Shown: piece after piece, positions 57,789 through 61,159 of the stretch
How positions within the stretch are numbered: position 1 is the stretch's first letter
Layout: every line of letters begins with the position of its first letter
Source of the DNA: Myxococcales bacterium
Lineage (GTDB): Bacteria; Myxococcota; Myxococcia; Myxococcales; JAJYLH01
Assembly: GCA_021787845.1 (NCBI GenBank)
Contig: JAJYLH010000005.1
Coordinates: forward strand, 62,001-126,000
Direction: 5' to 3'
Length of the DNA: 64,000 nucleotides
Made by a program: the position numbers and the translations under genes
Notes under the pieces: model-generated
Database searches by the model: none
What the model was told of the DNA's origin: nothing
What the model saw: the letters and a program-made list of their open reading frames with translations, nothing else

Positions 57789-57813
57789 CAAGTGAGGGCA
57801 CTGGCCTAGTTTG
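57789..57813. repeat. Left end of the transposon: target duplication plus terminal inverted repeat
   Basis: CAAGTGAG is followed by GGCACTGGCCTAGTTTG. The first eight bases recur directly after the right end and the 17 bases recur there inverted, both without mismatch. Because the end bases are G and C, the exact cut can be read with a 6- to 9-base duplication; eight fits a symmetrical inverted repeat. Confidence 0.9.
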
Positions 57814-57861
57814 AAATTCTGAGCAGTTGCGCGCTCGCTGGCGACGTGGCATGCACTTCGC

Positions 57862-58095
57862 ATGGCCTCGCGCAGCCGCCGACCCCGCCAGCCGTCCGAT
57901 CCCAACGCCTTCGCGCACGAGGTCGTGGAGCGCGTCGCGGGTCGAGCCGCAGAGCCGTCGCTGCCGCGCCACGTCGCCATCGAGGGCCGCACCGCGACGT
58001 GCGCCCGATGCGGGGCTGAATTCCGGCTCGCCGCACGCGAGCCCGCGCGATCCGCAGAATTGCGGGCCTTTTACGCGACACACGCGCACCCCTAG
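57862..58095 (+). CDS. Small basic protein with CxxC motif (transposon gene 1)
   Basis: A 77-residue protein 65 bases inside the left end of the transposon. It has one CARCGAEF motif that could be half of a zinc ribbon and a C-terminal AELRAFYATHAHP with two histidines that might complete the site. The N-terminus is basic (MASRSRRPRQP). No family is recognised. There is no clear ribosome-binding site. It may be a small DNA-binding accessory protein. Confidence 0.5.
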   Translation: MASRSRRPRQPSDPNAFAHEVVERVAGRAAEPSLPRHVAIEGRTATCARCGAEFRLAAREPARSAELRAFYATHAHP

Positions 58096-58273
58096 CCCGC
58101 GCAGAAACAATTAGCGGCACTTCCCGGGTATTAGCGGCACTTCGAGACAAGACGAGTGCGCTGCACGCAGCGTGCAGCGCAATATGCGCTTAGCGACCGG
58201 ATCGGGTTTTGATTGCGGTAGCGATTTCCGCTAAAGTTCGCGATGCTCAGACAGGGCGCGAAAGGGGTGGACG

Positions 58274-58753
58274 ATGAAATTCAAGACAAGGGCGCCAAAC
58301 GGCTCAGTCGTTGAGGTGGAGGACGTTCCAGAAAGCCTCTTCCGGGAACTGTTTGGCATGAAGAAGGCGGAAGCGCTGCCGCTTACCTCCGGAAGGCAGG
58401 AAAAACAGAACAACGGCGATCGCCCAAAAGGAGCCGTAGCGCTACTGTTCAGGCCGAAGGAGCTTGACGACCTGGGGCTCCTGCGGGGCTTCTCGGGCGA
58501 CGGCGTAAGGTCCGACGTCCTGATCAGGAGCCTGGGGCACGGGAAGACGATCGGGGGAAGACGCCTCGGATCGGTAGTTCTGGACTGGCTCAAAAGCGTC
58601 GGGCTCGTCGACGTGGCAGAGCATGACTACGGGCGCTTTTTTGAGGCCCGCGGCGCGCGGGTTGACGGGCAGCGCGGTTGGAAGATGACGGCCGAGATGC
58701 GCCAGCGTACCGCCGCCAAAGCGCAGGAGATGGAGAAGGAGATGAGGAGCTAA
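58274..58753 (+). CDS. Unknown protein (transposon gene 2)
   Basis: A 159-residue protein that I do not recognise. A good ribosome-binding site (AAGGGGTGG) precedes the ATG. The first 60 residues are polar (FKTRAPNGSVVEVEDVPESL); the last 90 look like a winged-helix-type arrangement (RSDVLIRSLGHGKTIGG, SVVLDWLKSVGLVDVAEHD, KMTAEMRQRTAAKAQEMEKE). The base composition is less GC-rich than host genes. A strong hairpin follows five bases after the stop. A regulatory or DNA-binding role is possible. Confidence 0.7.
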   Translation: MKFKTRAPNGSVVEVEDVPESLFRELFGMKKAEALPLTSGRQEKQNNGDRPKGAVALLFRPKELDDLGLLRGFSGDGVRSDVLIRSLGHGKTIGGRRLGSVVLDWLKSVGLVDVAEHDYGRFFEARGARVDGQRGWKMTAEMRQRTAAKAQEMEKEMRS

Positions 58754-58758
58754 AAGAA

Positions 58759-58792
58759 CCGGGGCCGACCCGTTGCAGCGGGTCGGCCCCGG
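58759..58792. terminator. Strong GC-rich hairpin after transposon gene 2
   Basis: A 14-base-pair perfect stem (CCGGGGCCGACCCG) with loop TTGCAG begins a few bases after the stop of the 159-residue gene. There is no T-run after it, so if it terminates transcription it may need other factors; it would also block read-through towards the transposase. Confidence 0.65.
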
Positions 58793-58927
58793 CGGCAACA
58801 ACCCGAGCGCCGCCGTGGAGGCGGGCTAAGGGCGCCACAGAGCCCCTTCAGTCTAAGCCCACGGTGGCGTTGCCGTCCACTTCCCGCCGGGACGCTCGGT
58901 CAACCCGACGGAGAAAGGAGGCTTGCC

Positions 58928-59017
58928 GTGGGCAACTCCCATGACGAGCGGGCGATCGTCCGTCCGCTGACGCTCCGGCTCCGACGCTGGAGGGCGAAGC
59001 GACTGGCGAAAGCCTAG
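58928..59017 (+). CDS. Possible 29-residue Arg-rich peptide (transposon)
   Basis: A GTG start lies six bases after the near-perfect Shine-Dalgarno AGAAAGGAGG. The peptide reads MGNSHDERAIVRPL and then a strongly basic helix (RLRRWRAKRLAKA). Upstream bases 58803-58871 can fold into a further imperfect hairpin (CGCCGCCGTGG with CCACGGTGGCG). The ribosome-binding site is the main support; translation is not proven. Confidence 0.4.
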   Translation: MGNSHDERAIVRPLTLRLRRWRAKRLAKA

Positions 59018-59044
59018 CAAACCGCGTGCCACCCGGGCGGGCGT

Positions 59045-59248
59045 CTATCGCCCGCGCCGGGTGGCCGCCGCCTCTCGGACACCGAGCGAGCGCAGCCACG
59101 AGGACAGGTCAAGGCCAGCCGCATCGGCGGCCTCCTGCATCGCCTCGCGCTGGTCGGCGGTCACTCGCACACGAACCAGGTCGTCCTTCCGGTCTGCGGC
59201 TGCCTTCCGTCGCACGGGCCGTCCCTTCGGGTGGGTGGGCTTCTTCAT
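59045..59248 (-). CDS. Ribbon-helix-helix protein (transposon regulator)
   Basis: A 67-residue protein with a basic N-terminal arm (MKKPTHPKGRPVRRKAAADR) and then DLVRVRVTADQREAMQEAAD, AAGLDLSSWLRSLGVREAA: one beta strand and two helices, the RHH fold of plasmid and transposon repressors and MobC-like proteins. The ATG is chosen because the arm then begins naturally and the divergent promoter lies just upstream. Its promoter mirrors that of the transposase gene and both share an inverted repeat over the -10 boxes, so it is probably an autorepressor that also limits transposase expression. Confidence 0.78.
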   Translation of the reverse strand: MKKPTHPKGRPVRRKAAADRKDDLVRVRVTADQREAMQEAADAAGLDLSSWLRSLGVREAAATRRGR

Positions 59249-59255
59249 GGGGCAC

Positions 59256-59284
59256 AGTGTAGCCACAAGGTAGCGCCGAGTCAA
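59256..59284 (-). promoter_or_regulatory. Promoter of the RHH gene
   Basis: On the minus strand TTGACT and TACACT are separated by 17 bases. The -10 box overlaps the inverted repeat arm TTGTGGCTACA. It fires away from the transposase promoter, with the -35 boxes 16 bases apart. Confidence 0.7.
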
Positions 59285-59327
59285 GCCGCAGAAACGGCGC
59301 TTGACACGTGGACACGTTGTGGCTACA
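59258..59327. promoter_or_regulatory. Paired operator arms of the divergent transposon promoters
   Basis: TGTAGCCACAA (left arm) and TTGTGGCTACA (right arm) are perfect inverted copies 48 bases apart. Each covers the downstream end of the spacer and the -10 box of one promoter, an arrangement suited to simultaneous repression of both genes by one protein, most simply the RHH product. Confidence 0.65.
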
Positions 59328-59329
59328 TT
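59301..59329 (+). promoter_or_regulatory. Promoter of the transposase gene
   Basis: TTGACA, a 17-base spacer and TACATT form a near-consensus sigma-70 promoter. The start of transcription would be near 59336, giving a short leader with GGACGGAGGG before the ATG. Confidence 0.75.
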
Positions 59330-59358
59330 AGGTCGCTAGGCAAGGGACGGAGGGCGCG

Positions 59359-60210
59359 ATGAACAAGCTCAGCACGGCGAAGCGGGCGGCGGTGGTTCGG
59401 TGCCTAGTCGAAGGCGTCTCGATGCGCGCGACAGCGCGGATGACCGGCGTGGCGCGGCAGACGATCAACGATCTGCTCGTGGACCTCGGCCGCGCTTGCG
59501 ACACCTACCAGGACCGCGTGCTCCGCAACTTGAAGTGCCGCCGCATCGAGTGCGATGAGATTTGGTCTTTCATTAGGATGAAGGAGAAGAACGTTCCGGC
59601 GCCGATGCGCGGCACGCTCGGCTTCGGGGACGTGTGGTGCTGGACGGCGATCGACGCGGACACGAAACTGGTTCCGACGTGGAGCGTGGCCGACAGGAGC
59701 GCTCCTGCTGCCCATGCCTTCATGCGCGACCTCGCCTCGCGCTTGTCGGGACGGGTGCAGCTCACCACGGACGGGCTGAAACACTACTTGGTCGCGGTCG
59801 ATCTGGCGTTCGGGACGGACGTGGATTTCGCGCAGCTCGTCAAGCAGTACGGGCCGGACGCGAACGCAGAGCAGGTGCGCTACAGTCCTGCTAGGTGCCT
59901 TGGGGCCGCGAAGCACGTCGTCTGCGGCGACCCCCACCTGGCGCTCATCAGCACGAGCTACGTCGAGCGCGCGAACCTCACGATGCGGATGGGGATGCGT
60001 CGGTTCACACGGCTGACGAACGCGCACTCGAAAAAGCTGGAGAACCACCAAGCTGCGATCGCGCTGCACTTCATGCACTACAACTTCGCGCGCATCAACC
60101 AGGCGTTGCGGGTGACGCCCGCGATGGCGGCCGGCGTGACGGACCATCTGTGGGAGGTCGAAGAAATCGTGGGGCTGCTCGACGAAGAGAGCGAGTCGAA
60201 GGCGGCCTAG
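59359..60210 (+). CDS. IS1-like DDE transposase, single reading frame
   Basis: A 283-residue protein. The N-terminal helix-turn-helix (AVVRCLVEGVSMRATARMTG, VARQTINDLLVDLG) corresponds to InsA-like DNA-binding sequence. The catalytic part follows with the acidic residues in CDEIWSF (about D66), AIDADTKLV (D99 or D101), TTDGLKHY (D138) and STSYVERANL (E203), and the RRFTRLTNAHSKK and FARINQALRVTPAMAAGV segments. It belongs to a widespread group usually annotated as IS1-family transposases with HTH and DDE parts in one frame, without the programmed frameshift of IS1. It is divergent from the RHH gene, and its stop overlaps that of the HicA-like gene. Confidence 0.88.
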   Translation: MNKLSTAKRAAVVRCLVEGVSMRATARMTGVARQTINDLLVDLGRACDTYQDRVLRNLKCRRIECDEIWSFIRMKEKNVPAPMRGTLGFGDVWCWTAIDADTKLVPTWSVADRSAPAAHAFMRDLASRLSGRVQLTTDGLKHYLVAVDLAFGTDVDFAQLVKQYGPDANAEQVRYSPARCLGAAKHVVCGDPHLALISTSYVERANLTMRMGMRRFTRLTNAHSKKLENHQAAIALHFMHYNFARINQALRVTPAMAAGVTDHLWEVEEIVGLLDEESESKAA

Positions 60211-60452
60211 ATGTGGAGGAAGGCTCTCGCGCAGTCCAAGATTCCAAGGTGCCGACACATCTTCTTCAGGTGGCCCACCTGAATGTCGGGGTCCTCGCGT
60301 CGTCCGTGCGGACCCAGCGGCAGGGCGGGAAACGTCCTGCCTCCGAAGGAAATGCACCAGTTGTGAGGCTTTTTCGACCGGGTGTGCCCCGGAGCACAAC
60401 GGTCAAGCATCTCCCAGATGGCCTTCAGGCTGACTGTTCCGGTTGAGCCCAA
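60207..60452 (-). CDS. HicA-like putative toxin (transposon cargo)
   Basis: An 81-residue protein from a TTG start with GGGACGG upstream. The pattern fits the HicA double-stranded-RNA-binding fold: an N-terminal helix (SLKAIWEMLDRCAPG), a histidine in KKPHNWCISFGG where HicA has its catalytic histidine, a strand ending in P-x-H (RTFPALPLGPHG) and a C-terminal IQVGHLKKMCRHLGI like the I-x-x-G-x-LK-x-x-x-x-x-x-GI end of HicA. It follows the HicB-like gene by 21 bases. Toxin activity is inferred only from this similarity and gene order. Confidence 0.6.
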   Translation of the reverse strand: MGSTGTVSLKAIWEMLDRCAPGHTRSKKPHNWCISFGGRTFPALPLGPHGRREDPDIQVGHLKKMCRHLGILDCARAFLHI

Positions 60453-60473
60453 GAGATTGCCGTCCCGCGCGCG

Positions 60474-60941
60474 TTACGCGGCGATCTGCAAGCCATCGTC
60501 GATCACGTTCTCGGTCGGCCGCAGTTTGAGCGCTCGCACGCGGACGGTCGGGATCGGCACGTCGGCCACTTTCGCGACGTTGTTCAACGTAACGCTGCCG
60601 GCCCGGACAGCGGCCCGAGCGGCATCCCACTCCGCGACGGTCACTGGGTCCGTTTCGTGGAAGAATCCGTCAACGGCGGCCCTGAATGCGTCGAGATCCG
60701 GCGCTTCCGATGCGTAGTCGGCCAGAACGCCCTTGATGCGTCCGCGAAAATCGATCACCGCCGAGTCCAGGCTAACGCCTGTTCCCGCAACAGCGCCTGG
60801 GTTGACGCCGTACAGCCACCACGAGCCGTCTTCGGACTCGGCCATCGCGCGCCCGTCGATGCTCACGACGCTTGCGAATCCCTTGCCGACGATGATCTCG
60901 TGGAAGCCGCAGAGCAGCGGGTATCGGCACACGTCGCCCAT
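60474..60941 (-). CDS. HicB-like putative antitoxin (transposon cargo)
   Basis: A 155-residue protein whose ATG follows AGGAG by seven bases. The N-terminal half can be read as a HicB-type partial RNase H fold: two strands (HEIIVGKGFASVVSIDGRAM), SWWLYGVNPGAVAGTGVSL, then a helix (LDSAVIDFRGRIKGVLADYA). The C-terminal half has DAFRAAVDGFFHETDPVTVA and may bind DNA or the partner. The antitoxin-like gene precedes the toxin-like gene. I recall a family of unannotated proteins with this W-x-Y-G-V-N-P-G motif; assignment is by pattern. Confidence 0.6.
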   Translation of the reverse strand: MGDVCRYPLLCGFHEIIVGKGFASVVSIDGRAMAESEDGSWWLYGVNPGAVAGTGVSLDSAVIDFRGRIKGVLADYASEAPDLDAFRAAVDGFFHETDPVTVAEWDAARAAVRAGSVTLNNVAKVADVPIPTVRVRALKLRPTENVIDDGLQIAA

Positions 60942-61134
60942 GTGTCGTCTCCTGCGTGCGCTCCCGCGCACAACGTTCTAAGGGCGCCCAAGAAAACGAC
61001 GTCCTTGAAAAGCCTAGGTAGTTTAAACTGCCACCGGAAGTCCACTCGAATTTTCGTGGGGCGCAAAAACAGCCGAGCGCTTGTTTTCGCGCGGTGAAGC
61101 AAGACACGTGCCGTTTGGCGAACGTCCGCCACCC

Positions 61135-61159
61135 CAAACTAGGCCAGTGCCCAAGTGAG
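61135..61159. repeat. Right end of the transposon: terminal inverted repeat plus target duplication
   Basis: CAAACTAGGCCAGTGCC is the exact inverse of the left terminal repeat and is followed by CAAGTGAG, the same eight bases that precede the left end. The preceding stretch 60942-61134 has no gene and probably holds the promoter of the HicB-like gene. Confidence 0.9.

Follow-up and report, generated by a model that had tools for sequence, protein, structure and literature searches.

An intact IS1-like transposon with an RHH gene divergent to its transposase

The window, by which we mean the whole 64-kb stretch of DNA analyzed here, contains an intact IS1-like transposon of 3355 bp (57797 to 61151), recognized by perfect terminal inverted repeats and an 8-bp target duplication. 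The left repeat, GGCACTGGCCTAGTTTG (57797 to 57813, plus strand), and the right repeat (61135 to 61151, minus strand) are both 17 bp long, and the duplicated target, CAAGTGAG, lies outside them at 57789 to 57796 and 61152 to 61159. Ends of this kind, beginning with GG and flanked by a target duplication of 8 to 9 bp, are those of the IS1 family; among 247 relatives, 105 likewise combined repeats beginning with GG and an exact duplication of 8 bp, and the ends were mostly GGTAGTGGGTCAGTTTGAA-like with duplications of this length. The element departs from a classical simple IS1 in carrying an RHH gene and at least three cargo ORFs, and its relatives range from 1.3 to 6.7 kb (median 2.9 kb). One full copy was present in the genome of the window, together with one distant cousin whose transposase is 46% identical.

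The transposase gene (59359 to 60210, plus strand) encodes 283 aa and has hundreds of relatives. The best NCBIfam model was transpos_IS1 (53.9 bits, E 2e-14, against a curated cut-off of 100), a score of 22.1 bits was obtained for Pfam DDE_Tnp_IS1 (cut-off 24.1), and Pfam matches to an N-terminal HTH were below threshold. Relatives of this transposase in plasmid records are annotated as IS1 family transposase, and no close DNA relative of the segment from 59045 to 59360 was found in plasmids. No RNA structure signal was detected in the transposase leader (z 0.66), no credible Rfam match was returned for the whole element, and the three main cargo ORFs gave no PADLOC or Pfam match.

On the minus strand, a 67-aa predicted RHH repressor (59045 to 59248) scored 33 bits against the Pfam NikA-like family (cut-off 27). 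Helices were modeled at residues 31 to 43 and 48 to 66, with the strand unassigned in the monomer model; the strand-helix-helix architecture is given by the Pfam match above cut-off together with the best fold matches, which were RHH proteins (probabilities of 0.90 to 0.99, with E-values that are weak at this protein size) and included the RHH repressors AtaR, KacA, FitA, AmrZ, CopG and PutA, solved with DNA. The ATG, at 59248, lies 7 nt past the −10 box of its promoter, with neither a leader nor a ribosome site, which suggests that the RHH mRNA is probably leaderless. Comparably close spacing was seen in six of the related loci collected here, which we label by L-numbers (6 to 8 nt in L057, L301, L225, L227, L232, and L114), and L307 had 10 nt. 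Within the phylum, several further RHH genes (L391 to L405) also start a few bases past a likely −10 box that is itself embedded in a palindrome of other sequence (GTAC- or ATAC-rich). Leaderless, self-controlled RHH genes may be common in that phylum.

Downstream of the RHH gene, a hairpin scan found a terminator-like hairpin (58758 to 58793, minus strand). It belongs to a region of strong tandem hairpins (58758 to 58880; −91.9 kcal/mol, z −4.7) that separates the RHH gene from a 159-aa cargo ORF; after it comes a short ORF of about 29 codons (near 58930 to 59019) that starts with GTG and has a good ribosome site. GC hairpins were also noted between promoter and transposase in L301, L307, L231, and L232, with no credible Rfam match.

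Two near-palindromic sites cover the −10 boxes of twin promoters

The transposase and RHH genes have divergent, sigma-70-type promoters located mid-element. On the plus strand, the transposase promoter (59301 to 59329) consists of TTGACA (59301 to 59306), 17 nt and TACATT (59324 to 59329), and on the minus strand the RHH promoter (59256 to 59284) consists of TTGACT (59284 to 59279), 17 nt and TACACT (59261 to 59256); both were found by pattern match and by a sigma-70 scan. A first-pass annotation of this DNA had described them as mirror-image twins, and its coordinates and sequences proved exact to the base. The pair also exceeds chance. TTGWCW-N17-TACANT matched twice in the window, at the twin promoters (0 expected), and when the element was scanned end to end for generic sigma-70 promoters, exactly two were returned, again the twin pair (0.2 expected). 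A promoter pair with this orientation was unmatched in 200 shuffles.

As the same annotation had stated, 11-bp arms overlap both −10 boxes: TGTAGCCACAA (59258 to 59268) and TTGTGGCTACA (59317 to 59327) are perfect inverted copies of each other. They sit inside an imperfect inverted repeat of 29 nt (79% complementary), which is in part explained by the −35 and −10 sequences that both promoters share. Each arm by itself is near-palindromic (TGTRGCYACA), and we therefore read them as two operators and not as two halves of one; TGTRGCYACA occurred twice in the 64-kb window, both times on the twin promoters (0.05 expected). The single shared operator proposed earlier is thus replaced by two separate ones, one per −10 box, predicted from the site scan: operator 1, TGTAGCCACA (59258 to 59267), on the −10 box of the RHH promoter, and operator 2, TGTGGCTACA (59318 to 59327), on that of the transposase promoter, with centers 60 bp apart.

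The sites track the RHH protein and not the transposase

Our survey drew on named genomes, viral contigs, plasmids, and whole-genome scans and comprised 247 non-redundant loci with a related transposase. An RHH gene was divergent to the transposase in 12 of them, and 235 were RHH-less. Allowing at most one mismatch, an automatic scan found the site pair in 3 of the 12 loci with RHH and in 0 of the 235 without, a count that omits L301, where the transposase start was misplaced; L301 and L307 were read by hand. Between the divergent genes, at the two promoters, TGTNGCNACA occurred twice as an exact match in the window, L301 (TGTTGCCACA/TGTAGCTACA), L307 (TGTAGCGACA/TGTGGCTACA), and L057, which has three sites including CGTAGCTACA (one mismatch), compared with a shuffled expectation of about 0.002 sites per locus; these four loci are few and fall short of full independence, since three of their RHH proteins are related. 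The sites are 49 bp apart, center to center, in L301 and L307.

From the sites and their distribution, we consider it likely that the 67-aa RHH protein is a transposon-encoded repressor that binds the two TGTRGCYACA operators on the −10 boxes and thereby shuts both divergent promoters. It could instead mainly control cargo such as defense or restriction-modification genes, or be an antitoxin, with any effect on the transposase incidental. Indeed, the RHH gene is followed by a GmrSD_N gene in L290 and L079, by a DNA methylase in L114 and by Vsr in L005, and because it heads defense cargo in several relatives, cargo control may be an equal or older role of the protein. In the window, however, no same-strand ORF of at least 50 aa was found in the 400 bp that follow the RHH gene, where the terminator-like hairpin lies, and the adjacent same-strand toxin gene of a type II antitoxin is thus missing; moreover, the operator on the transposase −10 box is kept as well as that on the RHH −10 box. 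We regard this explanation as unlikely.

The repressor might also be the transposase itself, binding the arms through its N-terminal HTH (the sub-threshold Pfam matches) and silencing its own promoter like InsA of IS1, given that IS1-type regulation involves the element's own HTH protein. The distribution of the sites led us to reject this candidate, which we judge very improbable. L014, whose transposase is 66% identical to that of the window (the highest among named relatives), has neither RHH nor sites, and the pair is absent from all 235 RHH-less loci, whereas sites are present in L301 and L307, where the transposases are only 45 to 50% identical and the RHH proteins 58 to 67% identical over 48 residues. 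In L114 (transposase 61%, RHH 47% identical), the DNA-reading strand of the RHH protein has changed from VRVRV to VPVKV and the sites are absent. By this comparison, the sites track the RHH protein and not the transposase. Conservation of the arms in homologues with both genes, named at the outset as a check on RHH binding, accordingly held in L301, L307, and L057 and failed in L114 with its altered strand. RHH-less relatives (e.g., L018, L034, and L088) often show an unrelated dyad instead, TGCTTGA-N4-TCAAGCA, which overlaps the transposase promoter and was found with at most one mismatch in 30 of the 235. Finally, that the symmetry comes simply from two ordinary promoters whose −10 boxes are similar, and that the arms are read by no protein, is barely credible, since the 29-nt repeat is partly promoter consensus but the conserved TGTNGC letters fall outside the −10 hexamers and the exact pairs in four divergent elements far exceed the shuffled expectation, with none where RHH is lacking.

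The presence of the site also matched the strand residues of the RHH protein. With an Arg-x-Arg strand, the site was found for 5 of 6 RHH proteins, and with other strands for 0 of about 22; these are hand counts, on which a Fisher test is naive because it ignores relatedness. The sixth Arg-x-Arg protein (L225) has TGTGCCACA/TGTGGCACA, one base shorter. L248, an RHH gene that stands alone and has no neighboring transposase (62% identical over 39 aa), carries a single site, TGTCGCTACA, at its start, and this lone gene was the only close RHH relative in viral contigs. Observed directly are the anatomy of the locus, sites that are not random, the way these accompany RHH in different lineages, and the correspondence of site and strand.

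In other viral contigs (L174 to L199), from apparently unrelated phages, TTGTAGCTACAA-type sites were seen in two to several copies, often three spaced 32 to 33 bp, just upstream of short RHH-looking genes. The same operator may be used widely by RHH proteins.

Other layouts and a possible exchange between lineages

Mirror-image promoters with other arms were found next to some RHH genes whose proteins have other strands. L290 has TTGACA-N17-TACACT and TTGACT-N17-TACATT with arms TGTAATGCATTTTGCA/TGCAAAGTGCATTACA; in L079, both promoters read TTGACA-N17-TATATT and the arms are AT-rich. No promoter pair was found in L114 and L208 by the same promoter scan, and the mirror layout is thus not universal. 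It is common to some RHH pairs despite a changed operator, as would be expected under co-evolution of protein and site.

The RHH gene adjoins the transposase gene in only about 5% of loci and is therefore optional. In the transposase tree, it was the usual partner in one deep set (L005, L006, L208, L225, L227, L273 to L275, L290, L301, and L307; 11 of 13 rows), whereas the large group to which the window belongs had it only sporadically (4 of 62 sampled rows). Although the window transposase falls in this large group, the RHH protein and operators of the window most resemble those of L301 and L307, which lie elsewhere in the tree. This suggests, in a single tree with bootstrap support not settled, that an RHH-operator cassette has been exchanged between lineages. 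In its broader form, this idea is tentative, and we put it at slightly under an even chance: an exchangeable cassette, made up of an RHH gene with mirror-image promoters and the two operators that match it, would move between transposase lineages of a widespread, defense-carrying IS1-like family, and two strand residues would set the operator, with Arg-x-Arg reading TGTNGCNACA and other residues other palindromes. If true, this would give NikA-like RHH proteins a recognition code that can be read.

A different gene order was seen in L005 (2322 to 2549), the second IS1-like copy in the window's own genome, and in L006 (2334 to 2522), from another genome of the phylum, where RHH directly follows the transposase in the same direction. 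In L005, the RHH start overlaps the transposase stop (ATGA), and Vsr and a cytosine methylase-like gene follow.

The IS1-like family (L010 to L388, e.g., L016 at 1634 to 2773) is a broad carrier of defense and toxin-antitoxin genes. Its divergent cargo gave PADLOC PD-Lambda-2_B matches in 21 of 72 scanned proteins, with further matches to SoFic, BstA, PD-Lambda-5, a type II methylase, and RmrT/RmrA. In the window, two minus-strand cargo genes at 60207 to 60941 make up a pair that is also conserved in L100. A HicA-like fold is predicted for the second of them, with a weak top PDB match to E. coli HicA, and the pair, which has no Pfam matches, is possibly an undescribed HicBA-like toxin-antitoxin system.

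Comparison with known regulators

The InsA protein of IS1 is part of the transposase reading unit, and its binding sites are the repeats at the ends. As there, an IS1-type element would limit expression of its own transposase, but here through a protein with a different fold, encoded separately and divergently and acting at an internal promoter. Our searches of the open-licence literature turned up neither an RHH repressor described for IS1-family elements nor anything relevant on IS1 with RHH or defense cargo. The NikA/TraJ/MobC type is similar in that NikA-like was the best Pfam family and NikA the best sequence match among solved structures; it differs in that the element showed neither an identifiable oriT nor a relaxase.

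TnpR of Tn3 binds at res and from there autoregulates both its own gene, tnpR, and tnpA, whose promoters are divergent (PMC7157771). Common to both is a small transposon-encoded DNA-binding protein divergent to the transposase, and the dual shut-off suggested here is supported by the distribution of the sites. The Tn3 protein, however, is a serine resolvase that also recombines res, whereas the element studied here is IS1-like and encodes a bare RHH domain. No recombinase family match above cut-off was obtained for its tested ORFs (Pfam, NCBIfam), so the serine recombinase and res site of the TnpR type were not found, and because no recombinase was identified we do not regard it as a member of the Tn3 type; it would rather apply the TnpR logic, one protein on two divergent promoters, with another protein in another transposon family.

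Palindromes of 12 bp that consist of [A/T]TGT[A/C]A hexads, TTGTAATTACAA among them, are recognized by the E. coli RHH protein RelB (PMC2812701). The window site TTGTGGCTACA and the TTGTAGCTACAA of relatives are close to this palindrome in outline. In relO, the half-sites abut at one promoter and the toxin acts as co-repressor, whereas here two sites 49 to 60 bp apart lie on two divergent promoters with no toxin after RHH. Searches of the open-licence literature for the exact TTGTAGCTACAA site gave unrelated papers only.

A candidate self-limiting circuit

The earlier proposal that the RHH protein binds both arms and silences itself and the transposase together is supported by the comparison across relatives, from which we infer binding, repression, cooperativity, a transposase burst, and a copy-limiting role. 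The protein would bind its operators, probably as cooperating dimers, and dimers on both −10 boxes would shut RNA polymerase off at the two promoters. When a fresh copy enters a naive cell, both promoters would be open and a burst of transposase would follow, until RHH, accumulating from its presumably leaderless message, closed them, which would keep transposition in check in that cell along with any later copies. Simple occupancy would explain the repression. Looping, also raised in the first-pass annotation, is possible but is not indicated by the site spacings (60, 49, 49, and 36+30 bp); 49 and 60 bp differ by about one turn, yet the set is too small and varied for us to claim looping from helical phasing.

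Transposons must limit themselves, and the compact circuit predicted here is testable with one small protein and an 80-bp DNA fragment. Its natural variants, with one fold and differing strand residues and operators, would allow RHH recognition to be probed through the exchange of two residues or two sites. As the divergent cargo of the family is rich in anti-phage and toxin-antitoxin genes, the repressor may also time the mobilization of this cargo.
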